DNA of 64,000 nt from Lachnospiraceae bacterium. Lineage in GTDB: Bacteria; Bacillota; Clostridia; Lachnospirales; Lachnospiraceae. Location: contig CAJTBF010000014.1 of the NCBI GenBank assembly GCA_910574195.1, forward strand, positions 1-64,000, written 5' to 3'. Each line of letters starts with the position of its first letter. The first letter of the stretch is position 1. The notes under the pieces were generated by a model. The model did no database searches, was not told where the DNA came from, and saw only the letters and a list, made by a program, of their open reading frames with translations. Below, in pieces: positions 11,162 through 57,071 of the stretch. The translations under genes and the position numbers were made by a program.

Positions 11162-11210
11162 AAACGAATCTCAGAAGTGTGCTGCAGTACACTCCTGAGA
11201 TTCGTTTTTT
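11162..11210 (+). terminator. Strong intrinsic terminator after uxuA-uxuB
   Basis: Long hairpin with AAACGAATCTCAG and CTGAGATTCGTTT arms, an inner AGTGT/ACACT extension, and a run of six Ts at the 3' end. A-rich on the other side, so it may work both ways. Confidence 0.88.
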
Positions 11211-11219
11211 ATGTGCCAT

Positions 11220-11258
11220 AGTATGCGGAAAAGCTGCCAGTGGCAGGTTTTCTGTATA
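11220..11258. repeat. Isolated unit of the 29.4-kb repeat family
   Basis: Contains GTATGCGGAAAAGCTGCC and GGCAGGTTTTCTGTAT around AGT, a terminator-like palindrome. The same unit occurs in diverged form several times at 29.4-29.7 kb. The rest of 11259-11442 carries a TATAAT at 11385 and the ribosome site of the next gene. Confidence 0.5.
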
Positions 11259-11442
11259 GTAACGGCAAAGTGGAAACGATGAGAGTTGTTACCGGGCCTT
11301 TTCACGGGAGTTGCATAATAATTGATGGTCGCCTGTCCGCACAAACAGAATGAAAATGCAGTGGATTTTTTTCTGTGATTTCGATATAATGAGAAAAGCA
11401 GGAATCAGAAAGAATGGTTTAGGAAAGAGAGGAAGAAAAGAG

Positions 11443-12099: not shown

Positions 12100-12271
12100 T
12101 TTCCATTTTTCATTTTGAGGATCAGGAAGAATTTTTGGAGAAATTCGAGCATGCGTAAAGTGATTGTAACAGATGTATTATATAGTGCATCAGATATTGA
12201 AAACCGATTAAAAGGTTGAATGATAAAATTAAAAAAATATGAAATATGGGGCAGGAGAATAGGAAGCAGAC

Positions 12272-43278: not shown

Positions 43279-43337
43279 ACAAAAAGAAATAAAGCTCTGT
43301 TTAATCAGCAGACATGAATTATAGGAGAAGAGGTAGT

Positions 43338-43988
43338 ATGACGAACAAAAGCACACAGGCAGAAAAAGTTTATGATTATATGCTGAAAAAAATTGTCAAC
43401 TGTGAATATTTCCCTGCGCAGGAGATGACTGCAAAAGAAATTGTAGATGAAACCGGATTCGGGCTTACTCCGGTGAGAGAGGCATTGCTCTTATTACAGC
43501 AGAATGGAGTTGTTGAGATCTTGCCCAGAAAGGGAGTTCGGATCGCTCCCCTTACGGAAGCAGATATAAAGGAAATATATAAAATGAGAGCGTTGATTGA
43601 GCCGCAGATTTGTATGGAGTACGCGCAATTTTATTCTCGCTCAAAGCTCTTTGACTATATTGATAAATTCGATGCGGATTATGACAGGAGTGACTATGAG
43701 AGATTTCAGCTTGATGTTGAGTTCCATAGATTTCTGATAGATATTGTAGACAACAAATATCTTAATTCGCTTTACAACACTTTGATGCCGGCACATGTAA
43801 GGATCGGAGTTTATGAGGCCGTGCACTCAAGCACGAAACACATCGACGATAATATCAAACAGCACAAAGACATCATAGATGCGATCCTGAAAGATGACAA
43901 AGCGCAGATACGTGTATCGCTGATGTACCATTTGAATTATGCTCTGGCTTACAGTATAAATGCGTTAGGCAATAAAAAAAGCGAATAA
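43338..43988 (+). CDS. GntR-family regulator with FCD domain
   Basis: A 216-residue FadR-type transcription factor. The winged helix (1-70) contains EIVDETGFGLTPVREALLLL and VVEILPRKGVRIAPL. The FCD ligand domain (80-215) has the metal-binding pattern: LIEPQI, VEFHRFLIDIVDN and a late His in LMYHLNYAL. FCD regulators usually respond to sugar acids or other carboxylates. It precedes the sugar-acid operon in the same direction, separated by a terminator, and is the obvious candidate regulator for both operons of the cluster, including the palindrome at 57072. Confidence 0.9.
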   Translation: MTNKSTQAEKVYDYMLKKIVNCEYFPAQEMTAKEIVDETGFGLTPVREALLLLQQNGVVEILPRKGVRIAPLTEADIKEIYKMRALIEPQICMEYAQFYSRSKLFDYIDKFDADYDRSDYERFQLDVEFHRFLIDIVDNKYLNSLYNTLMPAHVRIGVYEAVHSSTKHIDDNIKQHKDIIDAILKDDKAQIRVSLMYHLNYALAYSINALGNKKSE

Positions 43989-44007
43989 GTCCATACGGAC
44001 AGGAATC

Positions 44008-44056
44008 GAATCCCCAAACCGTGTTGCAGCACAGTTTGGGGATTCTTCTTTTCTTT
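44008..44056 (+). terminator. Intrinsic terminator after the GntR gene
   Basis: Perfect 12-base arms GAATCCCCAAAC/GTTTGGGGATTC followed by a T-rich tail (TTCTTTTCTTTT). Confidence 0.88.
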
Positions 44057-44106
44057 TATAATGGAAAATCCCCCAATGATGGATATTAATAGAATATAAA
44101 CGTGAG

Positions 44107-44151
44107 AAGTAATATATTTTACTTGCAATTTTTTGTTATATAATATATAAT
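44107..44151 (+). promoter_or_regulatory. Promoter of the sugar-acid operon with adjacent dyad
   Basis: TTGCAA (44123) and TATAAT (44146) are 17 bases apart. AAGTAA-TATATT-TTACTT (44107-44124) is a dyad touching the -35 box. It does not resemble the palindrome at 57072. Confidence 0.65.
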
Positions 44152-44195
44152 AAAAGCACAATAAACGAATAAAAATATATTTTGGAGATAAAACC

Positions 44196-45212
44196 ATGAA
44201 AACGATCATAATATCAGGTGAAAAAAGGGTAGAAATCATAGAACAGGAGATGCCGGTCCGCAAGAAGGGCGAGGCACTTCTGAAAATGGTAGTCGGCGGA
44301 ATATGTGGAAGCGATTTGAGCACTTACAGAGGCAAGCAGGCATACGCCACATTTCCTGTAATACCGGGGCATGAGATCGCGGCGGAGATCGTGGATATAG
44401 ACGAGAATGCCCGGGGCCTCAAGCCGGGTATGCTCGTTACCGTAAATCCATATTTCAACTGCGGCAAGTGTTATTCATGCAGACACGGCAAAGTGAACTG
44501 CTGCGAAAACAACCAGACCATGGGCGTCCAGAGAGACGGCGCATTCTCAGAATATTTTGTTGTGCCGGCAGAGCGGGTGATCGATGGGAAAGGCCTTACT
44601 GCAGAGAGATTGGCATTGGTGGAGCCTTTCTGCATCGGATACCATGGTGTAAAGAGAGCGGATATTCAGAAGGATGAAAAAGTGTTGATCATTGGCGCCG
44701 GGACCATCGGGCTCTGCGCTGCTGTTTCTGCAAACATCAGAGGTGCAGAAGTGTATATGGCCGATGTATCTGAAGAAAAGCTAAAATATGCTTCGGACCA
44801 TTTTCAGATAAATGGAACGATTTTGAACGACCACAAAGGTGCGATCGTGGAAGCGGTAGAGACCTGTACCGGCGGCGATGGATTTGATGTAACGGTAGAA
44901 GCTGTAGGCTTGAACAGTACATTTATGGACTGCATCGACGGACTTGCTTTTGGCGGCAAAATAATACAGGTGGGTGTTGGAAAGAATAATGTAGATTTTC
45001 CATTCCTGATGATACAAAAAAAGGAGATGAATATTTACGGTTCCCGGAACGCTTTAACAGAAGATTTTGACGAAGCGATACAAATGATTTCTGACGGGAC
45101 GATAGATATGGATGCTCTTATTACGAATGAATATTCCTATGAAGAGGCTGCCGAGGCCTTTGCACATTTTGATAAAAACCCGAATGCCATAAAGACACTG
45201 CTGAAATGGTGA
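44196..45212 (+). CDS. Zinc-dependent sugar-acid/polyol dehydrogenase
   Basis: A 338-residue medium-chain dehydrogenase. The catalytic zinc site is GGICGSD plus GHEIAAE; the structural zinc is held by four cysteines in NCGKCYSCRHGKVNCC. The NAD-binding GAGTIGL lies at about 170. The family includes L-threonine, sorbitol, galactitol-phosphate and L-galactonate/L-gulonate dehydrogenases. As the first gene of an operon with a UxaA-type dehydratase and an SDR, it most likely oxidises a hexonate to a ketohexonate. A close paralogue is encoded at 54846-55871. GGAG lies 10 bases before the ATG. Confidence 0.88.
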   Translation: MKTIIISGEKRVEIIEQEMPVRKKGEALLKMVVGGICGSDLSTYRGKQAYATFPVIPGHEIAAEIVDIDENARGLKPGMLVTVNPYFNCGKCYSCRHGKVNCCENNQTMGVQRDGAFSEYFVVPAERVIDGKGLTAERLALVEPFCIGYHGVKRADIQKDEKVLIIGAGTIGLCAAVSANIRGAEVYMADVSEEKLKYASDHFQINGTILNDHKGAIVEAVETCTGGDGFDVTVEAVGLNSTFMDCIDGLAFGGKIIQVGVGKNNVDFPFLMIQKKEMNIYGSRNALTEDFDEAIQMISDGTIDMDALITNEYSYEEAAEAFAHFDKNPNAIKTLLKW

Positions 45213-45544
45213 AAAAAATGAATACAGCATTTCAAATCAATAAAAAGGATAATGTCGCAGTGGCAGTCCATGGAATACAGGAAGGCGAAGTAAAAGTAGT
45301 CTGCGAGTCGAGTCATTATAACATCACTGCAATCGGAAATATTCCAAAGGGGCACAAGATTGCGGTACAAGATATATGTGCCGGAGAGCATATCGTAAAG
45401 TACGGAGTCGATATCGGCGTTGCAACAAAAGATATTTCAGCGGGGCAATGGGTACATCTTCACTGTATGAAAAGCTTTTGCGATGAAAGATCCTCTCATT
45501 TGGATGTGATGACCGGAGCACCATCAGATATTGCATATCTATAG
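45206..45544 (+). CDS. UxaA-type dehydratase, small subunit (SAF domain)
   Basis: A 112-residue protein corresponding to the N-terminal SAF-like domain of altronate/galactarate dehydratases (VAVAVHGIQEGE, then IPKGHKIAVQDICAGEHIVKYG). In classical UxaA and GarD this part is fused to the catalytic domain; here it is separate, as in the split SuyA/SuyB sulfolactate lyase and some altronate dehydratases. The ATG at 45206 overlaps the preceding stop; an ATG at 45218 is also possible. It should work with the large subunit encoded 17 bases downstream. Confidence 0.83.
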   Translation: MVKKMNTAFQINKKDNVAVAVHGIQEGEVKVVCESSHYNITAIGNIPKGHKIAVQDICAGEHIVKYGVDIGVATKDISAGQWVHLHCMKSFCDERSSHLDVMTGAPSDIAYL

Positions 45545-45561
45545 TTTAGGAAGGGAACAGA

Positions 45562-46779
45562 GTGAATAACCTTAATTATTCATATAATGATATATCGTGG
45601 GAAGGATATCTTAGAAAAGACGGCAGAAAAGGAATAAGGAACAAGGTGTTGATCATCTACACTGTGGAGTGTGCTTCCTTTGTGGCAGGCAGCATTGCGC
45701 GAAAGATGGATGACAATGATGTGGAAGTGATCGGTTTCACGGGCTGCACCGATAATGAATACGCGATTAAGATGCTCGTTTCTTTCTGCCGCCATCCAAA
45801 TGTGGGGGCTGTTCTTGTAATCGGACTGGGATGCGAATATGTGCAGGCAGAAAGGTTAGCTCATATTGCTGCAAAGTCCGGAAGACTTGCGGACTGGTTC
45901 CTTATTCAGGATACAGAAGGCACGAAGGCCTCCATAGCAAAAGGTCTTTCCATCGCCAGAGAAATGTATAGGAAGCTGAAACAGCAGAAGACAGTGCCGA
46001 TGCATTTTTCGGACCTTATGATCGGCGCGGAATGCGGGGGCAGCGACTATACAAGCGGAGTCGCGGGAAATATGGTTGTCGGCGGATTGTTTGACGCATT
46101 GGTTGAAGCAGGTGGAACCGCTATTTTTGAGGAGATACTTGAAACCATTGGGCTTAAACAGGTTCTGGTGGATCGTGCCGCCAGTGAGGATGTTGCAAAG
46201 CAGATTGCGTGGACATACGATAAAGCAGTGGATTATTGCAAAGAGGTGCATCAGTATTCCATCAGTCCGGGGAACTTTGCGGGAGGACTTTCCACAATAG
46301 AGGAAAAGAGTATGGGGGCTGTTGTAAAAAGCGGGACCACGCGGATAGAAGGCGTGCTGAAAGTGAGTGAGACACCGGCTCACGGCGGATTGTGGCTTAT
46401 GGACTCCACGCCGGATCCGTACTGGATGCAGTTTGGAATTTCCAATCCAAGCGATAATGAAGGATTGACTGCCCTTGCTTCCAATGGCTGCCAGCTCCTT
46501 TTCTATATCACGGGCAGAGGAAATGTGATCGGAAACGCCGTCGCACCGCTCATAAAGATCACCGGAAACAGTGAAACGTTCAAAAAGCTTCATAAGGATA
46601 TTGATTTCAACGCCGGTAAAATACTTGATGAAAATTGCACCAGGAGCGAGGCGGTAGCAGAGTTGGCGGGGCTTGTGTGCCGGGTGGCGGGAGGCGAGCT
46701 GACAAGAGCGGAAGAAACGGGACATAAAGAATTTTATATACCATATAAACATCAAAATAAGCCGTTTTGCAGAAAGTGA
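45562..46779 (+). CDS. UxaA-type dehydratase, large subunit
   Basis: A 405-residue protein matching the C-terminal catalytic domain of the UxaA/GarD family: GYLRKDGRKGIRNKVLI at the start, conserved cysteines in GFTGCTDN, GLGCEYVQA, GAECGGSDYTSG, and a late NCTRSEAVAELA. The family eliminates water from sugar acids such as altronate or galactarate using iron; a sister group removes sulfite from sulfolactate. A GTG start at 45562 follows GGAAGGGAAC. Together with the small subunit it forms the operon's first dehydratase candidate. The substrate is not determined. Confidence 0.85.
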   Translation: MNNLNYSYNDISWEGYLRKDGRKGIRNKVLIIYTVECASFVAGSIARKMDDNDVEVIGFTGCTDNEYAIKMLVSFCRHPNVGAVLVIGLGCEYVQAERLAHIAAKSGRLADWFLIQDTEGTKASIAKGLSIAREMYRKLKQQKTVPMHFSDLMIGAECGGSDYTSGVAGNMVVGGLFDALVEAGGTAIFEEILETIGLKQVLVDRAASEDVAKQIAWTYDKAVDYCKEVHQYSISPGNFAGGLSTIEEKSMGAVVKSGTTRIEGVLKVSETPAHGGLWLMDSTPDPYWMQFGISNPSDNEGLTALASNGCQLLFYITGRGNVIGNAVAPLIKITGNSETFKKLHKDIDFNAGKILDENCTRSEAVAELAGLVCRVAGGELTRAEETGHKEFYIPYKHQNKPFCRK

Positions 46780-46788
46780 GGAAAGAAA

Positions 46789-47550
46789 ATGGGAGACAAA
46801 TTTTTGTTGAAAGGGAAAACAGCAATCGTTACCGGCGGCGCGTCCGGCTTAGGACTTGCAATGGTAGAAAATATGGTGGAGGCGGGCGCAGAAGTAATTG
46901 TGATCGGTTCGCGCAACAAGGAAGAAGCAGACAGGTCCCTTTCGAAATTTGGAAATCAAGTATCTTTTATACAATTCAACATACAGGACACCGATAAGAC
47001 ACCGGAAATCATTGCGGATATTCTTTCCAGACATGGCAAGATTGATATTCTCGTAAACAACGCCGGGAATCATTGCAAAAAATTCATCGAAGATATGAGC
47101 ATCGAAGATTATGAGGATGTTTTAAAAACACATCTGGTTGCTTCCTTTGCGTTGTCGAAGGCAGTTGTGCCTCATATGAAAGAAAGAAGATACGGTAAGA
47201 TTATTTTCACGGCAAGTATGACGAGCTATTTTGGACAGCCGATGGTGTCCGGTTACGCCACAGCGAAATCAGGGATACTCGGACTCGTTCATGTTCTTAC
47301 TAATGAGCTGGGTTCCTATGGAATCAATGTAAATGCGATTGCACCGGGATGGATCGACACACCGATGTTTCAAAAGGTAACGAAACAGGATCCTCCCCGC
47401 TATAACAAAATAATAGGAAGGATTCCCATGGGACGTGTGGGCGAGCCGGACGATGTGGGGGCGGCGGCGGTATTTCTTGCAAGCGACGCTGCAAATTATA
47501 TCAACGGAGTATGCATTCCCGTAGATGGCGGTGCGTTGATCGGATTTTAA
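46789..47550 (+). CDS. Short-chain dehydrogenase/reductase
   Basis: A 253-residue classical SDR. TGGASGLG binds the cofactor, NNAG is the structural motif, and Ser in TASMTSYFG with YATAK gives the catalytic triad. The chain ends PVDGGALIGF, typical of gluconate 5-dehydrogenase and KduD-like enzymes. GAGGAAAG precedes the ATG. In this operon it would reduce a keto-sugar acid or oxidise an aldonate. A second, less similar SDR is encoded at 54093-54833. Confidence 0.88.
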   Translation: MGDKFLLKGKTAIVTGGASGLGLAMVENMVEAGAEVIVIGSRNKEEADRSLSKFGNQVSFIQFNIQDTDKTPEIIADILSRHGKIDILVNNAGNHCKKFIEDMSIEDYEDVLKTHLVASFALSKAVVPHMKERRYGKIIFTASMTSYFGQPMVSGYATAKSGILGLVHVLTNELGSYGINVNAIAPGWIDTPMFQKVTKQDPPRYNKIIGRIPMGRVGEPDDVGAAAVFLASDAANYINGVCIPVDGGALIGF

Positions 47551-47568
47551 GTAGGAGGAAAACGTGCG

Positions 47569-48228
47569 ATGAAATTTGAAAACGATAAAGAAAGATTCCG
47601 GTTAATGAAGGAGTTCTTGTACACACCTGTCGTTGGTGACATATTGGATGCGATCGGGTATGCGCACCAGTTTCTTCCTCCTGAGATCATGCCGCTTAAG
47701 GACGATATGAAAATCGCAGGAAGAGCCTGTACCGTCCTCGAAAATGATGTTTACGGCGCGCAGGAAAAGCCGTTCGGCCTTTTAACAGAAGCGCTTGATC
47801 AGCTGAAAGAAGATGAAGTATACGTAGCCACCGGAGCGCATCATAGTGCGTTATGGGGCGAGCTTCTTACAGCGGCGGCAAGGACGAGAGGCGCGGAAGG
47901 AGCTGTTTTGGATGGTTATACAAGGGACACGCCGCAGGTGCTGGCGCAAAACTTCCCTGTATTTGCAAGGGGAAGATGGGCGCAGGATTCTTCCATACGT
48001 ACTTACGTTTTCGATTTCAGATGCCCGATAGAAATCGGACAGGTTGTCATACATGACCAGGATATTGTTTTCGGAGACATGGACGGCGTTCTGATTATAC
48101 CGCAGGAAGTCGCAGATGAAGTGATCAATCAGGCGCTGGAAAAAGCAAAGGGTGAGAAGCTGGTGAGAAAGGCAATAGAGGGCGGAATGAGCGCTACCAA
48201 AGCCTTTGAAAAATTTGGAATTCTTTAG
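47569..48228 (+). CDS. RraA-family aldolase-like protein
   Basis: A 219-residue RraA/HMG-aldolase-fold protein. The family glycine- and aspartate-rich signature is GAVLDGYTRDT, with an Arg in the active-site loop (FARGRWAQDSS), and VVGDILDAIGY near the start. Members with this signature cleave 4-hydroxy-2-oxo acids or decarboxylate oxaloacetate with a divalent metal. In a catabolic operon it is more likely an aldolase for the pathway's final keto acid than a ribonuclease regulator. AGGAGGAAAAC precedes the ATG. Confidence 0.83.
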   Translation: MKFENDKERFRLMKEFLYTPVVGDILDAIGYAHQFLPPEIMPLKDDMKIAGRACTVLENDVYGAQEKPFGLLTEALDQLKEDEVYVATGAHHSALWGELLTAAARTRGAEGAVLDGYTRDTPQVLAQNFPVFARGRWAQDSSIRTYVFDFRCPIEIGQVVIHDQDIVFGDMDGVLIIPQEVADEVINQALEKAKGEKLVRKAIEGGMSATKAFEKFGIL

Positions 48229-48235
48229 ACATGCG

Positions 48236-48322
48236 GGGATGCCCGAATGGGTATACCTTATCGGACACAAAGTGTCCGCTCGTGCGTAGCACAATTCAAT
48301 ACGGGATGCCCGAATGGGTATA
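48236..48322. repeat. Paired 20-base direct repeats flanking a palindrome
   Basis: Two identical 20-base copies (48236-48255 and 48303-48322; core GATGCCCGAATGGGTAT, itself a weak dyad) flank CGGACAC-AAA-GTGTCCG (48262-48278). The same pair of modules appears inverted at 40039-40108. The second copy ends just before the next gene's ribosome site. Confidence 0.65.
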
Positions 48323-48339
48323 TTCAGGAGGACGAAAGA

Positions 48340-49455
48340 GTGATCATTAGCAAGTTTGAAACATGGTGGGTAAAAAGAGAAAAGAATTTCTTTGACGAGA
48401 AGCACAGAGGCAAGAGCAAGATGGACTGGGATGTGGTCGTTTTGAGGTTGACCACAGACACCGGCATACAAGGTATCTCTACCGCGCTGGCAGCAAGATC
48501 GGGACAGGTGACAGAAGGATATCTTCTGGACAATATCGCTCCGGCAGTTCTGGGACGCGACCCATTTGACAGGGAGGCGATCTGGCAGGATCTATGGAAC
48601 ATTGACAGAAACCTTACGTTTTTCCCGAACTATCTGCCGGGACCTGTGGATGTGGCTCTTTGGGATATATGCGCAAAGGCTGCGGGCCTGCCGCTGTACA
48701 AGTATTTGGGCGCTTACAGGACACAGCTTCCCGTATACGCAAGCGGTCTTTTCCATGACACGGCGGAAGAGTATGCTGACGAAGCACTCTTTTATAAAAA
48801 GAAAGGAATAGGAGCCTATAAAGCCCATCCGTCCGGATATTGGAAAGGCGACATCGAAGTGCACGAAGCAATCAGAGAGGCTGTAGGAAAAGACATGACT
48901 CTTATGACCGACCCTGTAGGCGAGTATACGCTGGGACAGGCGATACAGGTAGGCCGCAGCCTTGAAAAGCTTGACTATTATTGGTTTGAAGAGCCTTTCC
49001 GTGATTTTGAAGTAAATAAATACACGGAGTTGTGCGCGGCTCTTGACATTCCGATTCTTGGAACTGAAACCACAAGGGGGGCGCACTGGGGAGTAGCGCA
49101 ATCCATCATAAACAGGGCGACGGATATAGCAAGAGCGGATGTTTCCTGGAAATGGGGGATAACGGGTACGCTCAAAATCGCTCATTTAGCGGAAAGTTTT
49201 GGAATGAACTGTGAACTGCACACCACGACGATGAATTATATGGACATCGCTAACTTGCATGTGGCGTGTGCGATACGGAACACAGAATATTTCGAGTATT
49301 TTGTTCCGGAAGACAACTTCCGTCTTCCTATGAAGGGAGATATGCCCATCGAAAACGGCGTGATCACCGTTCCGAATAAACCGGGCGTCGGCGTGGAACT
49401 GGATTGGGATCTGATCGATCATTCGACGGCCTCATACAAAAAACTCGTTTACTGA
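48340..49455 (+). CDS. Enolase-superfamily dehydratase (first copy)
   Basis: A 371-residue mandelate racemase/muconate-lactonising-type protein. The N-terminal capping domain (1-125) is followed by the barrel. The usual K-x-K region reads YKAHPSG, so the second position is His. Metal-ligand acids follow in TDPVGEY, WFEEPFRD and LGTETTRG, and a late His appears in ELHTTTMN. The family dehydrates or epimerises sugar acids. The GTG at 48340 is chosen because AGGAGGACG lies just before it; earlier in-frame codons run through the repeat. It is only distantly related to the second enolase-superfamily gene at 55923. Confidence 0.85.
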   Translation: MIISKFETWWVKREKNFFDEKHRGKSKMDWDVVVLRLTTDTGIQGISTALAARSGQVTEGYLLDNIAPAVLGRDPFDREAIWQDLWNIDRNLTFFPNYLPGPVDVALWDICAKAAGLPLYKYLGAYRTQLPVYASGLFHDTAEEYADEALFYKKKGIGAYKAHPSGYWKGDIEVHEAIREAVGKDMTLMTDPVGEYTLGQAIQVGRSLEKLDYYWFEEPFRDFEVNKYTELCAALDIPILGTETTRGAHWGVAQSIINRATDIARADVSWKWGITGTLKIAHLAESFGMNCELHTTTMNYMDIANLHVACAIRNTEYFEYFVPEDNFRLPMKGDMPIENGVITVPNKPGVGVELDWDLIDHSTASYKKLVY

Positions 49456-49532
49456 TGCGGGAAACCGCATTTGTATATATGCACATATTTCAATGTGGGA
49501 AGGCTAATACAATGAAAAAGGAGGAGAAAGAA

Positions 49533-50597
49533 ATGAAAATGAAAAAAGTATTGGCAATGATACTGATGGTTGCAATGGTATTCACTTTAGCAGCATGCAG
49601 CGGAAGCACGGAGAGTGAAAACACAGACAGTGGAAGTGCAGACAGCGGCAGCACGGACAAAGAAAATGCAGCAGAAGTGAGCTTTGCATACGAAATGGCA
49701 GTAGGGGAACCTGGAGATACCGGAGTAAACGCAGCCAAGGAAGCATTAGAAGAATCCGGTTTTACCGTAAATGCGTATCCAAACGGGCAGCTTGGTTCCA
49801 AGGACGATGTGATCGACCAGATCCTTGCAGGTGAAAATCTCATCACAGTTGCGGATCCTCTGTATCTCGGAGAATATGTAGGCGACTTATCTATTCTTTA
49901 TGGACCTATGCTTTTTGACGATATGGATCAGGCTCTGAATTTTATGGAAAACAGCACGTGGCTCAGAGAAAAGAATGAAGAACTTGCTGAAAAAGGTCTG
50001 AGAATCATCGGATTCAACTGGATCTATGGCGACAGGGTTATCACGACAAAGACGGAGGTTACGGATCCTTCTCAGCTTAAGGGTATGAAGATCAGAGTAA
50101 ACTCCAACGATATCCAGATTGAGACTTTCAAGGCTCTCGAAACTGCTCCTACCGCTATGGCGCTGACAGAAGTATATTCCGCGTTACAGTCCGGAGCGGT
50201 TGACGGCTTTGAAAACACGTATTCTACAATGTACAATCAGGGATTCTATGAAGTATGTCCCTATATCTATGATGCTCCGATCGTGTGCGCAGTATCGCTG
50301 TGGATCTGCGGCGAAGAGTTCTATCAGTCCCTGACAGAGGAGCAGCAGGAGGCACTCTTAGACGCTATGGTAAAGGGTGCTGACGCGAACAACACGCAAA
50401 TGAATGAAGAAGCGGCAGGTTATCTTCAGAGTATGATCGATGCAGGCACAAAGGTATATGAACCGTCTGACGAAGAATTTGAAGCGCTGAAGGAACAGCT
50501 TTCAGGTGTCTACACCAATGAAGCGGTAACTTCCCACTGGGATGACAAAGATCTTTACAACACCATTCAGGAAGAAATCGAAAACTTAAACAAATAA
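49533..50597 (+). CDS. dctP: TRAP transporter substrate-binding lipoprotein (DctP type)
   Basis: A 354-residue lipoprotein with signal peptide and lipobox TLAAC, a Ser/Gly/Asp-rich spacer and a DctP domain. The family arginine lies in KGMKIRVNSN, and PTAMALTEVYSALQSGAVDG is the diagnostic segment. GGAGGAGAAAG precedes the ATG at 49533, itself inside an upstream in-frame ATG. TRAP proteins of this type bind carboxylates such as sugar acids; the arginine contacts the carboxylate. It delivers the substrate to the Q and M subunits encoded next, after a hairpin that may set their ratio. Confidence 0.92.
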   Translation: MKMKKVLAMILMVAMVFTLAACSGSTESENTDSGSADSGSTDKENAAEVSFAYEMAVGEPGDTGVNAAKEALEESGFTVNAYPNGQLGSKDDVIDQILAGENLITVADPLYLGEYVGDLSILYGPMLFDDMDQALNFMENSTWLREKNEELAEKGLRIIGFNWIYGDRVITTKTEVTDPSQLKGMKIRVNSNDIQIETFKALETAPTAMALTEVYSALQSGAVDGFENTYSTMYNQGFYEVCPYIYDAPIVCAVSLWICGEEFYQSLTEEQQEALLDAMVKGADANNTQMNEEAAGYLQSMIDAGTKVYEPSDEEFEALKEQLSGVYTNEAVTSHWDDKDLYNTIQEEIENLNK

Positions 50598-50641
50598 CCA
50601 AAACGAATCAGCACATCATTTATTTGTATTCGTTCACTCGT

Positions 50642-50690
50642 GGGAACTGCCGCCTGGCTGGCTGAAAAGCCTGTCGAAGCGGTAGTTCCC
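50642..50690 (+). promoter_or_regulatory. Stable hairpin between dctP and dctQ
   Basis: GGGAACTGCCGC and GCGGTAGTTCCC pair over 12 bases with one G-T, and an inner GGCT/AGCC pair. There is no T-run, so it more likely stabilises the dctP message or reduces read-through than ends transcription. Confidence 0.6.
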
Positions 50691-50719
50691 ATATTCACAA
50701 AATATTGGGAGACTTGATC

Positions 50720-51217
50720 ATGAAAAAGAAGAACATTTTAAATAATCTTGATTCGATCGTCGCCGGTTCTGTATTTATTTTTATGCTGCTTTTTACGGTA
50801 GCTTCTGTTTTTATGAGATATATTGTAGGTCAGCCGTTTATCGTTACGGAAGAAATACAGCTGTGGTGCATGGTATGGCTGGTGTTCTTTGGAATTGTAG
50901 TTGTCAGCAGACAAGGATCTCATATCGCGATTGATATCATCGTGGACAGTTTGCCTGAAAAAATCAGAAGAATCGTTGAAACGCTCATATATTTAATGAC
51001 GTTGGCAATTATGGGATATGTGTTATATCAAGGTATCATGTACGTACAGCATATGATTGTACATGACAGAAAGACGATCATGCTTGGAGTCTCTTATGGA
51101 ATTATATACGGAGCTGTTCCCGTCAGCTTCACATTTTCATTTATCTATACTGTAAGAGATCTTATAAAACTTTGGAAAAAACCAGATGTTGAAGAGGAGG
51201 TAGAGAAGAATGAGTAA
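50720..51217 (+). CDS. dctQ: TRAP transporter small permease (DctQ type)
   Basis: A 165-residue membrane protein with four predicted helices (about 12-32, 48-66, 88-108, 125-147) and the DctQ motif ITEEIQLWCMVWLVFFG-like segment (TEEIQLWCMVWLVFFG). It bridges the binding protein and the large subunit. GGGAGAC precedes the ATG at 50720. It overlaps the start of the M-subunit gene by eight bases. Confidence 0.9.
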   Translation: MKKKNILNNLDSIVAGSVFIFMLLFTVASVFMRYIVGQPFIVTEEIQLWCMVWLVFFGIVVVSRQGSHIAIDIIVDSLPEKIRRIVETLIYLMTLAIMGYVLYQGIMYVQHMIVHDRKTIMLGVSYGIIYGAVPVSFTFSFIYTVRDLIKLWKKPDVEEEVEKNE

Positions 51218-52493
51218 GGTTATAATTCTTTCCTTCATAGTTTTACTTGTATGTCTGTTTCTGAAAATGTCTGTGTTTGCAGCCATGTTGACAGCATCTG
51301 CGGTATATTTTTTTGTAGGCGGACAAGTCACACCTTATATACTCGACCAGAGAATGATATCCGGTGTGGAATCCATACCGCTTATGGCCGTGCCGTTTTT
51401 TATAGGCGCCGGCGTTTTTATGAACTATTCGGGTATAACCAGAAGAATCATGGATTTCTGTGAAGTGCTGACAGGAAAGCTTCCGGGCGGCCTTGCGCAG
51501 GTGAACATTTTACTTTCTACTATCATGGGGGGCCTTTCCGGTTCCAGCCTTGCAGACGCTGCGATGGAAGCAAAGATGCTGGTTCCCGAGATGGAAAAAA
51601 GAGGTCTGCCCAAAGATTTTTCTTCCGTAATCACAGCCTTTTCAGCAGTGATAACACCGCTGATCCCACCGGGAATCGCAATGATCCTTTATGGTTCTAT
51701 CGCACAGATCTCCATAGGGAAACTGTTTATTGCCGGAATCGGTCCCGGGTTGCTGACCTGTATCGCGATGATGGTGCTTACGGGCGTCATTTCCAAGAAG
51801 AGAAAATACAGAACCCTTGATGAAAAATTCACAGTCTCACGGCTTGGAAAGGCATTTAAACCGGCCGCTGCCTCTCTGTGCCTTCCGATCATCATTATCG
51901 GCGGAATAAGAATCGGTGTGTTCACTGCGACAGAAGCCGGAGCGATTGCGTGTTTATACGCACTTATACTCGGCTTAAGCTATAAAGAACTCAACATAAA
52001 AACTTTTCTTAGCGGCGTCAGAGAAACTGTAGAGACAACGGCGGCGGTACTGATTATCGTAGGCGCGGCATCCACGTTCGCATGGATCCTTACACGCGAA
52101 CAGATACCGCAGTATCTTGCAAACCTCATGGTAACGTCCATAGGAAGCAAGTATCTGTATCTGTTGATCGTGAATCTGTTCCTCCTGGTTGTAGGAATGT
52201 TTATCGAAGGAAACGCAGCATTGATCGTACTGGTTCCGCTGCTTCACCCCATCGCGCTTGAGTTCAATATCGATCCGATCCAGTTCGCGACGATTTTCAA
52301 TTTTAACATGGCGATCGGTTCTATTACTCCGCCGCTTGGAACTCTGATGTTTACGACGATTGGTGTAACCGGTTGTTCTATGAAACAATTCCTGAAGGAG
52401 AGTATCCCTTACTTCATACTGTTCTTCGCGATTCTGTTGGCAATAAGCTATGTGCCTTTCTTCACGTTAGGGCTTGTAAATCTGATTTATTAG
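51210..52493 (+). CDS. dctM: TRAP transporter large permease (DctM type)
   Basis: A 427-residue membrane protein with about twelve helices and re-entrant loops. Family landmarks are AVPFFIGAGVFMN, GGLSGSSLADAAMEAKMLVPEM and ITPLIPPGIAMILYG, with a late NMAIGSITPPLGTLMF. It is the sodium-coupled translocator of the TRAP system. AGGAGGTAGAGAA overlaps the end of dctQ. Together with P and Q it imports the organic acid used by the cluster. Confidence 0.93.
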   Translation: MSKVIILSFIVLLVCLFLKMSVFAAMLTASAVYFFVGGQVTPYILDQRMISGVESIPLMAVPFFIGAGVFMNYSGITRRIMDFCEVLTGKLPGGLAQVNILLSTIMGGLSGSSLADAAMEAKMLVPEMEKRGLPKDFSSVITAFSAVITPLIPPGIAMILYGSIAQISIGKLFIAGIGPGLLTCIAMMVLTGVISKKRKYRTLDEKFTVSRLGKAFKPAAASLCLPIIIIGGIRIGVFTATEAGAIACLYALILGLSYKELNIKTFLSGVRETVETTAAVLIIVGAASTFAWILTREQIPQYLANLMVTSIGSKYLYLLIVNLFLLVVGMFIEGNAALIVLVPLLHPIALEFNIDPIQFATIFNFNMAIGSITPPLGTLMFTTIGVTGCSMKQFLKESIPYFILFFAILLAISYVPFFTLGLVNLIY

Positions 52494-52550
52494 AGCGCGT
52501 TTGAAAATTGTTTTCTGGCAGATGACGGGAATGAATTTTCAAACATGCTC
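52493..52550. repeat. Inverted repeat after dctM
   Basis: Arms of 17 bases (GAGCGCGTTTGAAAATT and AATTTTCAAACATGCTC) match at 15 positions. It begins at the dctM stop codon. No T-run follows. It sits between the transporter and the LarA-like gene. Confidence 0.65.
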
Positions 52551-52573
52551 CAGGAAAAAAGGAGAAATAATCC

Positions 52574-53872
52574 ATGTATATAGAATTTCCGAAAGTGGAG
52601 GGTATCATTGTTCAGGAAAATCAAAACAATTCCGGGCTTCCTAAAATGCTGACGATAAGGCAGAGCTTTGATGATGAAAAAATAATCGACATTCCGGGGC
52701 ATATAAAAAAGGAGATGGAGAAGCTTTCCCACAAGGCTGATTGGTTTTCAGGCAAACGGATCGCCATCACATCAGGAAGCCGTGGGATTCCCAACATCCA
52801 TATCGCGCTGAAGGCTGTATGCGATCAGCTGAAAGAATGGGGAGCTCTTCCGTTTATCGTTCCTGCAATGGGAAGCCATGGAGGCGCAACGGCCGATGGG
52901 CAGAAAGAAGTCCTGGAATCCTTTGGAATCACAGAGGAATTCGTAGGCGTTCCAATCTGTTCCTCCATGGATGTGGTGCACTATGGAGACCTGCCGGACG
53001 GTACACCGTTGTATTGTGATAAACTGGCTTTTGAATCAGACGGTATCGTAGTCCTGCATAAGGTGAAGCCTCATACGGATTTTCGTGGAGAGCATGAAAG
53101 CGGACTGCTTAAGATGATTGCCATAGGTCTGGGCAAGCACAAAGGAGCCGCCGCAATACATTCCCATGGCTTCTATGGATTTGAGGGAAAGATCGTGGGT
53201 GCCGCAAAGCAGTTTCTTGAAAAAGCGCCGGTTGCTTTCGCAGTGGGAATCGTGCAGAACGCTTATGACGAACTGTGTACCATTGAAGTGGCAGAGAAAG
53301 AGGACATCTTTGAAGCAGATGCGAGACTGCTGAAAGAAGCAAGGACAAAGATGGCAGGATTCAAATTTGACGATATCGATGTCCTGATCATCGATGAAAT
53401 AGGAAAAAATATCAGTGGATTTGGATTCGACCCGAATATCGTAGGAAGATCAAACAACAAGAACTATGGTGTAAACGATCCGATCCAGATAAAGCGTTTG
53501 TTTATCCGGGGGCTCACACCTGAATCCCACCATAACGGCTGCGGTCTGGTTGCAGCAGATATTACAACGAGACGGTGCCTTAACGATGTGGATTGGGCGC
53601 CCACATGGACAAACTTTGTTGCCTGTACGGAGATCCAGGGCGGAAAGATCCCGATGTATTTAAACAACGACAGGGACGCTTTGCTCATGGCGATAAGAAG
53701 TTGCGGAGGAGAGTCGCGTCCATTGCGAATGGCAAGAATAAAAAACACGCTTTGCATGTTTGAAATGGAAGTTTCCGAAGCGCTTTATGATCTGATCAAA
53801 GACAGGGAGGACGTGGAGCTTGTAAGAGAAGCACATGAGATCGAATTTGACAGAGAAGGTTTTATGGTATAG
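52574..53872 (+). CDS. LarA-like (DUF2088) racemase/epimerase family protein
   Basis: A 432-residue protein of the lactate-racemase-domain family. The first-domain motif resembling LarA's His loop is AMGSHGGATADGQ, and the second is VKPHTDFRGEHESGLLKM, where LarA has its nickel-pincer lysine and histidine. LarA homologues racemise lactate, and others epimerise malate or sugar acids at C2, so a C2 epimerisation step in this pathway is plausible. The genes that make the nickel-pincer cofactor (larB, larC, larE) are not in the window, so the cofactor and function are open. It is the last gene of the plus-strand operon, ended by the terminator at 53898. Confidence 0.75.
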   Translation: MYIEFPKVEGIIVQENQNNSGLPKMLTIRQSFDDEKIIDIPGHIKKEMEKLSHKADWFSGKRIAITSGSRGIPNIHIALKAVCDQLKEWGALPFIVPAMGSHGGATADGQKEVLESFGITEEFVGVPICSSMDVVHYGDLPDGTPLYCDKLAFESDGIVVLHKVKPHTDFRGEHESGLLKMIAIGLGKHKGAAAIHSHGFYGFEGKIVGAAKQFLEKAPVAFAVGIVQNAYDELCTIEVAEKEDIFEADARLLKEARTKMAGFKFDDIDVLIIDEIGKNISGFGFDPNIVGRSNNKNYGVNDPIQIKRLFIRGLTPESHHNGCGLVAADITTRRCLNDVDWAPTWTNFVACTEIQGGKIPMYLNNDRDALLMAIRSCGGESRPLRMARIKNTLCMFEMEVSEALYDLIKDREDVELVREAHEIEFDREGFMV

Positions 53873-53897
53873 AAACTTCCTATATCTTATTTATAGG

Positions 53898-53953
53898 GCT
53901 GTCGCTTTTACGGTAAAAAAATCGTGAAGCGGCAGCTACTTTTGCCTTTTTTA
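53898..53953 (+). terminator. Terminator of the plus-strand sugar-acid operon
   Basis: GCTGTCGCTT and AAGCGGCAGC arms (one G-T type pair) with a T-rich tail TTTTGCCTTTTTT. Confidence 0.82.
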
Positions 53954-54019
53954 TGTTTATATTTACGCGATTCTAATTAGAAAAGTTGTCTTGAAATAAA
54001 AAAGGATGTAATTTTTTAC

Positions 54020-54062
54020 ACAGAAAAGGAGCTGCGCATCAATTACCTGATACGACAGCTCC
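54020..54062 (-). terminator. Terminator of the minus-strand sugar-acid operon
   Basis: On the minus strand, GGAGCTG...CAGCTCC is followed by TTTTCTGTGT. It lies 30 bases after the SDR stop, so the two operons converge on separate terminators. Confidence 0.75.
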
Positions 54063-54092
54063 TGGAGTACAAATAAATGCTTTAACTAAATG

Positions 54093-54833
54093 CTAAAAAC
54101 CGAGGGCGAGAGCGCCTCCGTCAAGGGCGTAATCCTGTCCTGTGATATATTTTGCGTTATCGCTCAAAAGGAATCTTGCAAGAGCGCCCAGATCTTCGGT
54201 ATTGCCGTATTCATGTAAGGGGATTCTTGCCAGGGTTTTCGCCTGCCTTTCCGGGTCGTATACCTGTTTGCTCATTTCGCTGGGGAACCATCCCGGGGCG
54301 ATACTGTTTACACAGATGTTGTCGTTTGCCCATTCGATGGCAAGACCGCGTGTGATCCCTAAAACTGCGGATTTACTGATGCAGTAAGGAACGACCTCGA
54401 CGAAGCCGAGATGTGCCGCCATGCTGCTTATGGTTATGATTCTGCCCTTATGAGGACTTTTCCTGAGGTAAGGATAGCAAAGCTGGCATAGATGGAAAAT
54501 ACTGTCAACGTTGACAGACATGATCCCCCGATAATCCTCCATGGGAAAAACCTCAGCGCGGCACTTTTTGTTTATTCCGGCATTGTTGAAAAGAAAATCG
54601 AGTCCCTCCTCCGCCACCTCCGTTACGATCCTTTTCATCTCATCGTAGCAGGTTACATCGCCTTTGATATGAATCACGCCCTCGTGGCTTTCTTCCCAAC
54701 CTTCTTTTACCCTGCCGGTCCTGCTTATTGCATACACGGTGGCGCCTGCATCGGCGAGCGTGTTGGCGATTTGATAGCCGATGCCGCTGCTTCCTCCTGT
54801 GAGCAGTCCAATGCGTCCTTCTAATTCTTTCAT
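54093..54833 (-). CDS. Short-chain dehydrogenase/reductase (second copy)
   Basis: A 246-residue classical SDR. TGGSSGIG is the cofactor loop, NNAG follows, and Ser in ISSMAAHLG with YCISK completes the triad. It ends DGGALALGF, much like the SDR encoded at 46789. AGGAGGTCTAT precedes the ATG. Third gene of the minus-strand operon, 12 bases after the dehydrogenase gene. It probably interconverts a keto acid and a hydroxy acid of the same or a related pathway. Confidence 0.87.
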   Translation of the reverse strand: MKELEGRIGLLTGGSSGIGYQIANTLADAGATVYAISRTGRVKEGWEESHEGVIHIKGDVTCYDEMKRIVTEVAEEGLDFLFNNAGINKKCRAEVFPMEDYRGIMSVNVDSIFHLCQLCYPYLRKSPHKGRIITISSMAAHLGFVEVVPYCISKSAVLGITRGLAIEWANDNICVNSIAPGWFPSEMSKQVYDPERQAKTLARIPLHEYGNTEDLGALARFLLSDNAKYITGQDYALDGGALALGF

Positions 54834-54845
54834 ATAGACCTCCTG

Positions 54846-55871
54846 CTATTTTCTAAAATCAAAGATCGCTTTCACGATATAGTCGGATTCTTTATCCATT
54901 TCAGCAAAAGCTTCCTCCGTCTGCTCCGGCGTGTAGGTCCTGGAAATGAGTTTTTTCAAATCGACCACGCCGTCACGAACCAATTGTATGACTTCTTTGA
55001 AGTCGTCATTGGTTGCAGCTTTGCTCCCTCGTATTGTCATTTCTTTTGTCTGTATATCGAGAAAATTATAATCTGCGTTGTGTTTTGCTACCCCGATCTG
55101 AATAAACTGTCCGCGGCAGGCTACCGCCTTTGAACAGCCGACAAAAGTTGAGGGGGCGCCGACAGCTTCGACGGTGATATCAAATCCGTCGCCGCCGGTT
55201 ATATCGCGTATGTATTTGTCCAAAGCCTCTTCTCTGTTGTTTACGAAACTGCCGTCAAAGCCAAAGTTTTCCACGGCAAAGGAAACTTTATCAGAGGCAA
55301 TATCACAGATATATACCTTTGCGTTCGAGTGCTTTGCGGCTACGCCTGCGAGGATACCTATGGCGCCTGCCCCAAAGATCAGTACTTTATCGCCCGGACG
55401 GATGGTTGCTCTTTTCATCGCATGATAGCTGATACAGAACGGTTCAATAAGAGCCACTACTTCCGGGTCGAGACCGGATGCGTCAAAGAGTCTTTTGACG
55501 GGCATCACAAAGTATTCGCTGAAAGCGCCTTCCCGTTTTACTCCCATAGTCTGGTTATTGATACATGCAGTGAAAAAACCTCTTCTGCAGGCATAACAGG
55601 TGCCGCAGTTGAAATAGGGGTTGCCGGTCACCAGCATCCCTTTTTTAATTCCGTACTGGTTTTCAGGGGCTTCCATGACCTCCGCCGCGAACTCGTGACC
55701 TACGACGCGGGGAAATGTGGTATAAGCGGAAACGCCTCTGTACGAAGAAAGATCGCTTCCGCATACGCCGCCGACTACCATTTTGAGTAATGCTTCGCCG
55801 GGCCCCGGAACGGGGATATCCTGCTCATAAACGTAAGCCGTACCCGGTTTTTCGATTCGTATAGATTTCAT
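54846..55871 (-). CDS. Zinc-dependent sugar-acid/polyol dehydrogenase (second copy)
   Basis: A 341-residue medium-chain dehydrogenase very similar to the one at 44196: GGVCGSD, GHEFAAE, the four-cysteine NCGTCYACRRGFFTAC cluster, NNQTMGVKREGAFSEYF and the NAD site GAGAIGI. AAAGGAGGAATAC precedes the ATG at 55871. The two copies share long identical stretches, so they are recent paralogues or were acquired together. It is second in the minus-strand operon, between the enolase-superfamily gene and the SDR. Confidence 0.88.
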   Translation of the reverse strand: MKSIRIEKPGTAYVYEQDIPVPGPGEALLKMVVGGVCGSDLSSYRGVSAYTTFPRVVGHEFAAEVMEAPENQYGIKKGMLVTGNPYFNCGTCYACRRGFFTACINNQTMGVKREGAFSEYFVMPVKRLFDASGLDPEVVALIEPFCISYHAMKRATIRPGDKVLIFGAGAIGILAGVAAKHSNAKVYICDIASDKVSFAVENFGFDGSFVNNREEALDKYIRDITGGDGFDITVEAVGAPSTFVGCSKAVACRGQFIQIGVAKHNADYNFLDIQTKEMTIRGSKAATNDDFKEVIQLVRDGVVDLKKLISRTYTPEQTEEAFAEMDKESDYIVKAIFDFRK

Positions 55872-55922
55872 ATGTATTCCTCCTTTATTTCCGCGAAGCA
55901 ACGAGCCAGGTGGGCATGTTTG

Positions 55923-57029
55923 CTACGGGGTATTTGACTTGATCTCCGTCATATACTTATGAAGGAAACGAAAGCCCCAGCCGTCCCCTTCTCTTGGAGT
56001 TGCAAATCCGTTTTCGACAGGCAATGTGTTATCTATGATCGCGTCGATCCAGTCGAAGCTTTCGGCTCCGTAATAGTTCGGGATCGTAGTAAGAAGCGGA
56101 ACATCGTAATCCTTATAGTAATGCGGAAGCATGGGGATTCCGTATGCACCGGCAAGACTTGCCGCGTCCCTCCAGGCATCCACACCGCCTATGCGGATAA
56201 TGTCAGGCTGCCAAAGGTCTATGGCATCACGTTTGATCAGTTCACGAAGCGGGATTGTGTTGTATTCGCGTTCGCCCATAGCAAGACTGATCCTGGTGGA
56301 GGAGTGTATTGTCTTATATCCATCATAATTGGTATTTTTTATAGGCTCCTCGAACCAAAAGATTCCCAGATCCTCAACGGAAGATATGAGCTTGATGGCG
56401 GAAGCGACATCCATGCCCTGATTTGCGTCGATCATGATGTTTATGCCGCTTCCGACGGCTTCTTTTACCAGATGGAGACGTCTTATATCACGTTCCATGT
56501 CAGGACTTCCCACCTTTATCTTTACTGCAGTAAAACCTCTCTTTTTGTAGTCGACTACCTCATCAATCAATTCCTGATCCGTGTAATTAAGCCATCCGCC
56601 GCTTCCATAGACAGGTATCTTGTGGTTATGGCAGCCAAGCAGCTTGTATACAGGCAGTTTATTGCACTTCGCCCATGCGTCCCACATAGCAACATTGACT
56701 GCGGCAAGAGGCCATTGGTTTAGCCCCACATTGCCGAAATATTCTGTCTCTTTGGAATAATCCTGCATGAGCTGTCTTGTTTCGTAAGCGTGGTATTTGC
56801 GATCCTTAACGAATCTCCTGATATCTTTCAGTGCGCCTTCGATGGCATTTGGGCTGTATTCAAAAGCGAGCAGATAACCTTGCCCGATCATGCCGTTGCT
56901 GCATTCCACTTCTACGATATAGAACGCGATGGCATCGATATCGTGCGTGGCGTCTGCGATGGGTCTTGAAAGCTGGCTGACTGCATGATAAATTCTTAAA
57001 TCTTTGATGACAGTATCTTTGTTGTTCAT
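55923..57029 (-). CDS. Enolase-superfamily dehydratase/epimerase (second copy)
   Basis: A 368-residue mandelate racemase-type protein. The K-x-K motif is intact (AVKIKVGSPD), and metal ligands follow in MIDANQG, WFEEPI and MGERE, with a His late in LPHYYKDYD. This is the mandelate-racemase layout with Lys and His acid/base partners. AAAGGAGGTAAA precedes the ATG at 57029. It is the first gene of the minus-strand operon and lies directly behind a consensus promoter overlaid by a perfect palindrome. The substrate is probably an acid sugar. Confidence 0.88.
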   Translation of the reverse strand: MNNKDTVIKDLRIYHAVSQLSRPIADATHDIDAIAFYIVEVECSNGMIGQGYLLAFEYSPNAIEGALKDIRRFVKDRKYHAYETRQLMQDYSKETEYFGNVGLNQWPLAAVNVAMWDAWAKCNKLPVYKLLGCHNHKIPVYGSGGWLNYTDQELIDEVVDYKKRGFTAVKIKVGSPDMERDIRRLHLVKEAVGSGINIMIDANQGMDVASAIKLISSVEDLGIFWFEEPIKNTNYDGYKTIHSSTRISLAMGEREYNTIPLRELIKRDAIDLWQPDIIRIGGVDAWRDAASLAGAYGIPMLPHYYKDYDVPLLTTIPNYYGAESFDWIDAIIDNTLPVENGFATPREGDGWGFRFLHKYMTEIKSNTP

Positions 57030-57071
57030 TTTACCTCCTTTTATATTACACATCCGATATTGTTTATAATA

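Follow-up and report, generated by a model that had tools for sequence, protein, structure and literature searches.

Plant and host glycans broken down in the gut and rumen yield hexuronates and hexonates as major products. The closest described systems for their use are the Ashwell pathway of E. coli (uxaCAB, uxuAB, kdgKA), the L-galactonate route (LgoD, UxaB and UxaA in E. coli, LguBCD in Luteolibacter; PMC12632266), and the L-gulonate pathway of H. influenzae, which is described with GulPQM, GulD, UxuB, UxuA, KdgK and KdgA (PMC5788505). The subject here is a gene cluster in the window, a 64,000-nucleotide stretch (C14:1-64000) of a Lachnospiraceae genome of 3.96 Mb in 80 contigs. The chances appear about even that this locus is a parallel, mostly non-orthologous counterpart of those pathways. 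We infer its reactions and their order from the observed gene families, their conservation, the units they form, a swap of entry enzymes and the canonical paralogues elsewhere in the genome.

The cluster spans 43314-57053, with a plus-strand operon at 44196-53872 and a convergent minus-strand operon at 54093-57053. The order on the plus strand is GntR/FCD regulator, ZnDHA, SAF, GD_AH, SDRA, RraA, MRA, DctP, DctQ, DctM and LarA, and that on the minus strand, read from 57053 to 54093, is MRB-ZnDHB-SDRB. Open reading frames (ORFs) and Pfam and NCBIfam models bear out the gene order, strands and families given in an earlier note on this DNA. A promoter scan (18, against 23.8 in shuffles) and a terminator scan (14, against 13.5) are roughly at shuffle level.

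43314..43988, plus strand: GntR/FCD-type transcriptional regulator (PF00392 and PF07729 above cut-off)
44196..45212, plus strand: ZnDHA, candidate Zn-dependent hexonate 5-dehydrogenase on the LgoD side of its family (PF08240/PF00107; tree)
45206..45544, plus strand: SAF, small subunit of a split UxaA/GarD-type dehydratase (PF08666)
45562..46779, plus strand: GD_AH, large subunit of a split UxaA-type dehydratase, in a third clade besides UxaA and GarD (PF04295, PF20629; tree support 0.999)
46789..47550, plus strand: SDRA, short-chain dehydrogenase/reductase (SDR), candidate ketouronate reductase (uronate isomerase neighbour in relatives; clade)
47569..48228, plus strand: RraA-family lyase, candidate 2-keto-3-deoxy-hexonate aldolase (PF03737; neighbour genes of relatives)
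48247..49455, plus strand: MRA, mandelate-racemase-subgroup protein with K-x-H-P, candidate acid-sugar dehydratase (PF02746, PF13378; alignment)
49512..50597, plus strand: DctP, solute-binding protein of a tripartite ATP-independent periplasmic (TRAP) transporter
50720..51217, plus strand: DctQ, TRAP small permease (PF04290)
51210..52493, plus strand: DctM, TRAP large permease (PF06808; TIGR00786 above cut-off)
52574..53872, plus strand: LarA homologue in group 22 of the nickel-pincer isomerases, a candidate C2-epimerase of sugar acids (NF052515)
54093..54833, minus strand: SDRB, SDR, partner of MRA in relatives (clade support 0.999; MRA adjacency)
54846..55871 (or to 55901), minus strand: ZnDHB, candidate Zn-dependent hexonate 5-dehydrogenase (PF08240/PF00107; clade support 0.996 with type III loci, see below)
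55923..57053, minus strand: MRB, mandelate-racemase-subgroup protein with K-x-K (PF02746, PF13378)

In the proposed pathway the TRAP importer would take up a hexonate, and LarA would invert C2 of one epimer. ZnDHA or ZnDHB would oxidise C5 to give a ketouronate, a place that a divergent uronate isomerase may fill in relatives. SDRA or SDRB would reduce the ketouronate to the other C5 epimer, which SAF/GD_AH or MRA would dehydrate to a 2-keto-3-deoxy-hexonate. RraA would split this product into pyruvate and a C3 aldehyde, or 2-keto-3-deoxygluconate (KDG) kinase and 2-keto-3-deoxy-6-phosphogluconate (KDPG) aldolase encoded elsewhere would take over. The two putative branches are ZnDHA-SDRA-SAF/GD_AH and ZnDHB-SDRB-MRA, with MRB as a possible extra dehydratase or epimerase. 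Since both Zn-dehydrogenases fall on the LgoD side of their tree, apart from RspB and IdnD, and the plan fits the H. influenzae L-gulonate and the L-galactonate routes, the acids most likely to feed the two branches would be similar to L-galactonate and L-gulonate. Among the E. coli proteins fetched, the best match of ZnDHA is LgoD (34%).

Conserved units around MRA

A genome-neighbourhood search, proposed in the earlier note, shows the gene set to be widely conserved. MRA has orthologues of about 69% identity in five other genomes of the window's own family (397 searched, including this one), with the gene split in one of the five. At L055:9555-10651 (genome G205) the MRA gene is broken across two frames, through either gene decay or faulty assembly. 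Relatives with 66-76% identity occur in Lachnospiraceae, other Clostridia, Prevotella, other Bacteroidales, Paenibacillus and Cohnella, and likewise within this range in Halanaerobium, Megamonas, Fretibacterium, Sphaerochaetaceae, Planctomycetota and Microbacterium.

The loci compared are the best 80 of 109 MRA relatives from a scan of named genomes, and 45 of the 80 reach at least 20 kb (full loci). Genes were counted by tblastn; a first ORF census had MRA masked by overlapping frames in 13 of the 80 loci. A GD_AH fragment at the edge of L100 fell below threshold and is excluded. Three pairs of stretches (L051/L113, L052/L121, L054/L123) have equal lengths and scores and are apparently the same, and the SDR, Zn-dehydrogenase and GD_AH clade sizes therefore double-count some genes; the 80-locus census is unaffected. 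RraA is present in 65 of the 80 loci, any SDR in 72, SDRA in 60, GD_AH in 59, SAF in 41, SDRB in 40, uronate isomerase in 31, MRB in 14, ZnDHA in 5, ZnDHB in 4 and LarA in 1. The 45 full loci hold an SDR in every case, RraA in 41, GD_AH in 35, the isomerase in 22 and MRB in 10. RraA, GD_AH and SDR genes occur in none of five control loci around more distant mandelate racemase (MR)-family homologues (L056-L060), all from the window's own family.

Four types of locus can be told apart. Type I, in Clostridia and others, has RraA, SAF/GD_AH, SDRA, uronate isomerase, MRA, SDRB and TRAP. Type II, in Prevotella, has RraA, SDRA, GD_AH and MRA with a major facilitator superfamily (MFS) transporter, whose best NCBIfam match in the one representative tested is the D-galactonate transporter (271 of 395 bits, below cut-off). 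Type III (L078, L121, L130, L139) has RraA, MRA, SDRB, MRB, ZnDHB, GntR and a window-type TRAP, and type IV (L071, [Clostridium] asparagiforme DSM 15981) has SAF/GD_AH, SDRA, RraA, MRA, TRAP, LarA and ZnDHA. The window combines the gene sets of types III and IV, two hexonate-entry variants, plus a group-22 LarA, and L071 comes closest to it in arrangement. Type III and IV loci carry a Zn-dehydrogenase and no isomerase. Around the units MRA+SDRB and SDRA+GD_AH, the entry enzyme can thus be either an isomerase or a Zn 5-dehydrogenase, and the transporters are exchangeable as well.

SDRA and GD_AH are found together in 35 of the 45 full loci, with 4 having SDRA alone, none GD_AH alone and 6 neither (Fisher p 2.6e-5, uncorrected for kinship); across all 80 loci the counts are 55, 5, 4 and 16. 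SDRB has no association with GD_AH across the relatives' loci. MRA adjoins SDRB 20 times, and the isomerase adjoins SDRA 29 times among the 31 loci that have it. The SDR tree has an SDRA clade of 69 members, including those of Prevotella and Paenibacillaceae, and an SDRB clade of 46 members with support 0.999. SDRB was found in none of the eight RraA loci that lack MRA, four of which have close RraA orthologues. Genome G181 carries MRA-SDRB-MRB on one contig (L054) and RraA-SAF-GD_AH-SDRA on another (L195). Solved structures do not identify SDRB: its best match, 1vl8 (gluconate 5-dehydrogenase), is one of 111 at E<=1e-25 and unspecific.

These units do not follow the operons. The earlier note had described near-duplicated operons in two parallel copies. 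Only the Zn-dehydrogenases are close (52% identity), the SDRs sharing 34% and the enolase-superfamily proteins 30% over 246 aa, and the units in relatives are MRA+SDRB, SDRA+GD_AH, and MRB with SDRB or ZnDHB. MRA of the plus operon and SDRB of the minus operon therefore belong together, and the units cut across the operons. The description of the dehydrogenases as close paralogues stands as to identity, but they lie on separate tree branches. ZnDHB clusters with its counterparts in L078, L121 (the same as L052), L130 and L139 (support 0.996), and ZnDHA diverges before both the ZnDHB group and the LarA-linked dehydrogenases (0.89). Since ZnDHB groups with copies from other genomes and ZnDHA branches earlier, a recent local duplication of one operon is excluded, as it is by the low identities.

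Dehydratases, canonical paralogues and the cleavage step

MRA and MRB both have the N- and C-terminal domains (PF02746, PF13378) and a K-x-K or K-x-H motif, and their metal ligands, as we read them, appear to match the mandelate racemase subgroup. The distant pairing and motif split reported earlier are confirmed, MRA having K-A-H and MRB having K-I-K. Of 67 ORFs of the MRA type, 66 show K-x-H-P (34 by search, 32 read from the sequence); the 67th, L147, was read at another position. All NCBIfam matches listed for MRA (11 models) and MRB (16 models) are below cut-off, and none assigns a known acid-sugar specificity. MRA scores 48.3 of 828.7 bits against TIGR03247 and is by this model not a GudD orthologue; its BLAST comparison with characterised dehydratases covered a few E. 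coli proteins. The nearest solved structure to MRB is 3ugv, followed by mandelate racemase, and the nearest solved chains to MRA are 4hcd and 1rvk, whose titles presumably name glucarate dehydratase.

GD_AH belongs to a 65-member clade that excludes the four UxaA and three GarD proteins in the tree (support 0.999). SAF shares 40% identity with the UxaA N-terminus over 82 aa, and the BLAST scores of SAF and GD_AH together lean slightly to UxaA (213 bits, against 176 for GarD). Galactarate dehydratase is the sole NCBIfam match of both, far under cut-off; GD_AH has 168.8 of 730.85 bits against TIGR03248 and is not a GarD orthologue. The split SAF/GD_AH architecture is presumably shared with SuyAB. 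Nothing in the gene context points to a sulfolactate pathway.

The same dehydratases bear on a hexarate pathway, in which the dehydratases would be of the galactarate type (GD_AH) and the glucarate type (MRA), RraA would act on 2-keto-3-deoxy-glucarate, an SDR would reduce tartronate semialdehyde and LarA would epimerise hexarates. The galactarate dehydratase match and the 4hcd/1rvk chains favour this reading, as do group-22 LarA genes near GarD or GudD in L062, L064, L165 and L167. The Prevotella set of two dehydratases, RraA, SDR and MFS mirrors garD/gudD/garL/garR/garP, and FlDet (see below) gives a precedent (PMC8563752). A hexarate pathway is nevertheless improbable: the uronate isomerase beside SDRA, the Zn 5-dehydrogenases and the genes that accompany RraA (UxuA, ILVD/SMP-30 lactonase) are a misfit, and by Pfam the 14 cluster genes include neither a semialdehyde dehydrogenase nor a glycerate kinase.

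The genome has a canonical hexuronate gene set outside the cluster. Its single uronate isomerase (PF02614) is on C2, with 54% identity to that of E. coli, and none is in the cluster. The only PF03786 copy, a canonical UxuA (502 bits), is at 9184-10236 of the window, 33 kb from the cluster. Canonical UxaA and UxaB are together on C5, and KdgA/KdgK-like genes are on C13. In relatives, 33 module isomerases form their own clade (support 1.0), apart from those of E. coli and this genome, the second copy of L143 and that of L192; they are 39-44% identical to the canonical isomerase of this genome. At least two isomerases occur in 19 of 19 genomes with an isomerase at the MRA locus and in 1 of 20 without (39 related genomes, not independent). 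This paralogy of isomerase and GD_AH, with canonical genes co-existing, suggests that the module serves substrates other than those of the canonical pathway.

RraA scores 112.2 bits on PF03737 (cut-off 24.5), and all nine NCBIfam matches listed for it are below cut-off, placing it in no named functional subfamily. Among 299 genomes of the family, 12 (this genome being one of them) have a relative of it at E<=1e-40, and eight loci without MRA were read. RraA is with SAF/GD_AH and SDRA in L193 and L195. In L192 and L194 it is with a dehydratase of the UxuA family (PF03786) and an SDR from the SDRA clade, L192 also having a canonical-clade uronate isomerase. In L197, L198 and L199, RraA (52-53% identical) is with an ILVD/EDD dehydratase, an SDR and a gluconolactonase-type (SMP-30 lactonase) gene. 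Pfam identifies the dehydratase except in L199 and the lactonase except in L198, where they were recognised by eye. L196 has no dehydratase (SAF/GD_AH, UxuA or ILVD/EDD), SDR or lactonase partner beside RraA. RraA relatives (52-78% identity) thus adjoin four unrelated dehydratase families, MR, GD_AH, UxuA and ILVD/EDD, which share a product class, and RraA is therefore the probable candidate for cleaving the 2-keto-3-deoxy acid.

The earlier note had reached RraA by default, with neither KDPG aldolase nor KDG kinase in the cluster. The candidacy is upheld by the four dehydratase neighbourhoods, but the default argument is weakened: the absence is true of the cluster, and the genome has kdgR/kdgA/kdgK-like genes on C13, where its single PF01081 copy is adjoined by a KdgK-like kinase, with a KdgR-like regulator too.

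Several observations weigh against the counterpart pathway outlined above. KDPG aldolase (PF01081) is encoded in 37 of 39 relatives' genomes searched, which were chosen from the 80 loci, the other two being metagenome-derived records; cleavage may therefore fall to an enzyme other than RraA, and that RraA is obligatory for want of KDPG aldolase is unsupported. The RraA-like FlDet is described as dehydrating and decarboxylating 2-keto-3-deoxy-glucarate and as inactive on KDG (PMC8563752). Prevotella-type loci have one SDR and no isomerase or Zn-dehydrogenase within the stretch. The SDRA clade has a modest support of 0.79. Isomerase and SDRB co-occur (20 both, 6, 2, 17) at least as strongly as isomerase and SDRA (22, 17, 0, 6), and type I has both SDRs, so the pairing of SDRs with branches is unclean. 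GD_AH is equally distant from UxaA (31.7%) and GarD (30.9%). No cluster enzyme passes a curated functional model save LarA with its group model, the assignments being by family and context.

There is also a more conventional account, in which L-galactonate (ZnDHA, SDRA, SAF/GD_AH) and L-gulonate (ZnDHB, SDRB, MRA) would be converted to KDG by non-orthologous enzymes and then pass to KdgK/KdgA, with RraA peripheral. The Zn-dehydrogenases on the LgoD side of the tree and the kdgA/kdgK-like genes in the genome agree with it, and the H. influenzae L-gulonate plan is likewise described as TRAP, Zn-dehydrogenase, reductase and dehydratase (PMC5788505). This account is rather unlikely, since a UxaA/UxaB/ZnDH/LarA set (L061, see below), UxaC and UxuA are already in the genome, a redundancy that needs a reason, and RraA is in 41 of the 45 full loci.

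Substrate clues and the group-22 LarA

It is possible, if doubtful, that the module is devoted to some non-canonical sugar acid, a hexuronate or hexonate beyond the reach of the textbook pathway, such as 4-O-methyl-D-glucuronate from xylan, with an MR enzyme eliminating methanol, or L-iduronate-type epimers. Its last enzyme would be a 2-keto-3-deoxy-hexonate aldolase new to the RraA family, so that KDG kinase and KDPG aldolase are bypassed; it would use the group-22 LarA as a hexonate C2-epimerase, and would be common to gut Clostridia, rumen Prevotella, Paenibacillaceae and others. Alpha-glucuronidase GH67 occurs in 6 of 29 relatives' genomes, which gives no co-occurrence support for 4-O-methylglucuronate, and no paper on catabolism of this acid was found in the open-licence literature.

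The window DctP is nearest to the solved structure 4ovt (36% identity), whose ligand we take to be L-fuconate. This would suit a pathway for deoxy-sugar acids of the L-fuconate type, in which MRA would be the dehydratase, SDRB would oxidise the 2-keto-3-deoxy acid as its dehydrogenase and RraA would be the lyase. A dehydrogenase acting on L-2-keto-3-deoxyfuconate has been described (PMC11199699). That enzyme is presumably an SDR. Such a pathway is highly improbable: it leaves the uronate isomerase, GD_AH and the hexonate 5-dehydrogenase without a role, and 36% identity of a solute-binding protein is too low to fix its ligand. In favour of the counterpart pathway, for the L109 binding protein the closest in identity among 50 fold matches listed are 4x8r (34%) and 4n8y (32%), which are described as binding glucuronate and galacturonate (PMC11668362).

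The flanks of the loci have no polysaccharide in common, Pfam on 3 of 23 large flanking ORFs giving GH78 (L115), alpha-amylase (L078) and MFS (L109). A GH78-type alpha-L-rhamnosidase gene is at 35649-37253 of the window, 6 kb from the cluster, and GH78-type genes are also at L194:1-2712, directly before UxuA-SDR-RraA, and at L115:17042-19222, near the MRA module. This proximity possibly reflects a link to rhamnose-capped uronates, or chance. L109, L115, L122 and six more loci have an esterase gene (family F19), located between TRAP and RraA in L109 and L115; the best matches of the L122 esterase are arylesterase and pectin acetylesterase models, below cut-off. The imported acid may thus be an ester or lactone. 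In L192 an apiosidase-like gene (8525-9847) and a gene with GH3 and HAD-hydrolase parts (10691-12967) are beside the uronate isomerase-SDR-UxuA-RraA set. At L139:11447-19373 (Microbacterium murale) the module adjoins, by eye, an aldehyde dehydrogenase, a KdgD-like gene and another MR enzyme.

LarA scores 490.6 bits on the group-22 model NF052515 (cut-off 400), which names no substrate. R70, H102, H167, K180 and H196 are invariant across eight LarA homologues. The corresponding L. plantarum LarA residues are given as R75, H108, H174, K184 and H200 (PMC11770544). The spacing in the window LarA appears, on our reading, to be near that of L. plantarum LarA, with the residues that bind the nickel-pincer nucleotide (NPN) and the two catalytic histidines matched. 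LarB, LarC and LarE are all above cut-off and adjacent on C19. The epimerase that the earlier note placed between two epimeric acids has a candidate in a LarA-type isomerase with NPN residues and its LarB/C/E partners in the genome. As for the two acids entering one pathway, the context agrees with two acid branches converging in the cluster; the two-copy layout attached to the idea does not stand.

LarA is an optional addition to the module, present in 1 of 80 relatives' loci. Group 22 is above cut-off in 19 of 299 family genomes. Its neighbourhoods were counted in the window and 29 other loci, several per genome, with LarA not among the chosen ORFs in L069, L163 and L175. GD_AH-type dehydratases (UxaA, GarD or GD_AH) occur in nine of these 30 stretches (window, L061, L062, L064, L065, L066, L167, L169, L170) and GudD- or DgoD-type dehydratases in two further (L165, L172); the other 19 have neither, L173 having a weak RspA-type match at its end. 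The second LarA locus of the genome, L061 (G000:C5:195000-214000), has a Zn-dehydrogenase 56% identical to ZnDHA, along with UxaB and UxaA (44% and 50% identical to those of E. coli), and looks like a LarA-extended L-galactonate-type pathway. A natural guess is that group-22 LarA is a hexonate/hexarate C2-epimerase. Table 1 of PMC7583248 holds no LarAH22 or group-22 enzyme. The nine enzymes of PMC11770544 are described under other numbers, two of them, from E. asparagiformis (the species of L071), being placed with lactate racemases.

Comparison with described systems

In line with the earlier note, which recognised no described pathway with this gene set, no paper uniting RraA, its partner families and sugar acids in one pathway was found in the open-licence literature. 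A conserved second pathway beside the canonical genes suggests sugar acids of undescribed fate. It also offers roles that can be tested for three sparsely annotated groups: the RraA subfamily as a 2-keto-3-deoxy acid lyase, the third split GD_AH clade, and the group-22 LarA as hexonate/hexarate C2-epimerases. The window LarA resembles the LarA superfamily in its group-22 score, its NPN and catalytic residues and the LarB/C/E genes in the genome. The nearest precedent found for RraA is FlDet, likened by description rather than sequence, which likewise belongs to the RraA family and converts a 2-keto-3-deoxy sugar acid; its substrate is a hexarate derivative, not KDG, whereas the context here is hexonate/hexuronate.

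The proposed plan, which leads from an isomerase or dehydrogenase through a ketouronate reductase and a dehydratase to a 2-keto-3-deoxy acid and pyruvate, would be that of the Ashwell pathway. The cluster differs in having SDRs for UxaB/UxuB, a third-clade split dehydratase for UxaA, MRA for UxuA, and RraA instead of KdgK/KdgA, with the canonical genes elsewhere in the genome. The H. influenzae L-gulonate pathway shares a TRAP importer with a dehydrogenase (a Zn-dehydrogenase in the cluster), a reductase and a dehydratase, GulD being likened by its description and not its sequence. The reductase, dehydratase and cleavage genes of the cluster are of other families or clades, and it has no UxuA. 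The L-galactonate route shares an LgoD-side Zn-dehydrogenase and the tagaturonate-altronate logic (PMC12632266), whereas the cluster has an SDR reductase, a split GD_AH clade, LarA, MRA and RraA. The pathway logic is known from hexuronate and hexonate routes; the enzymes are not.

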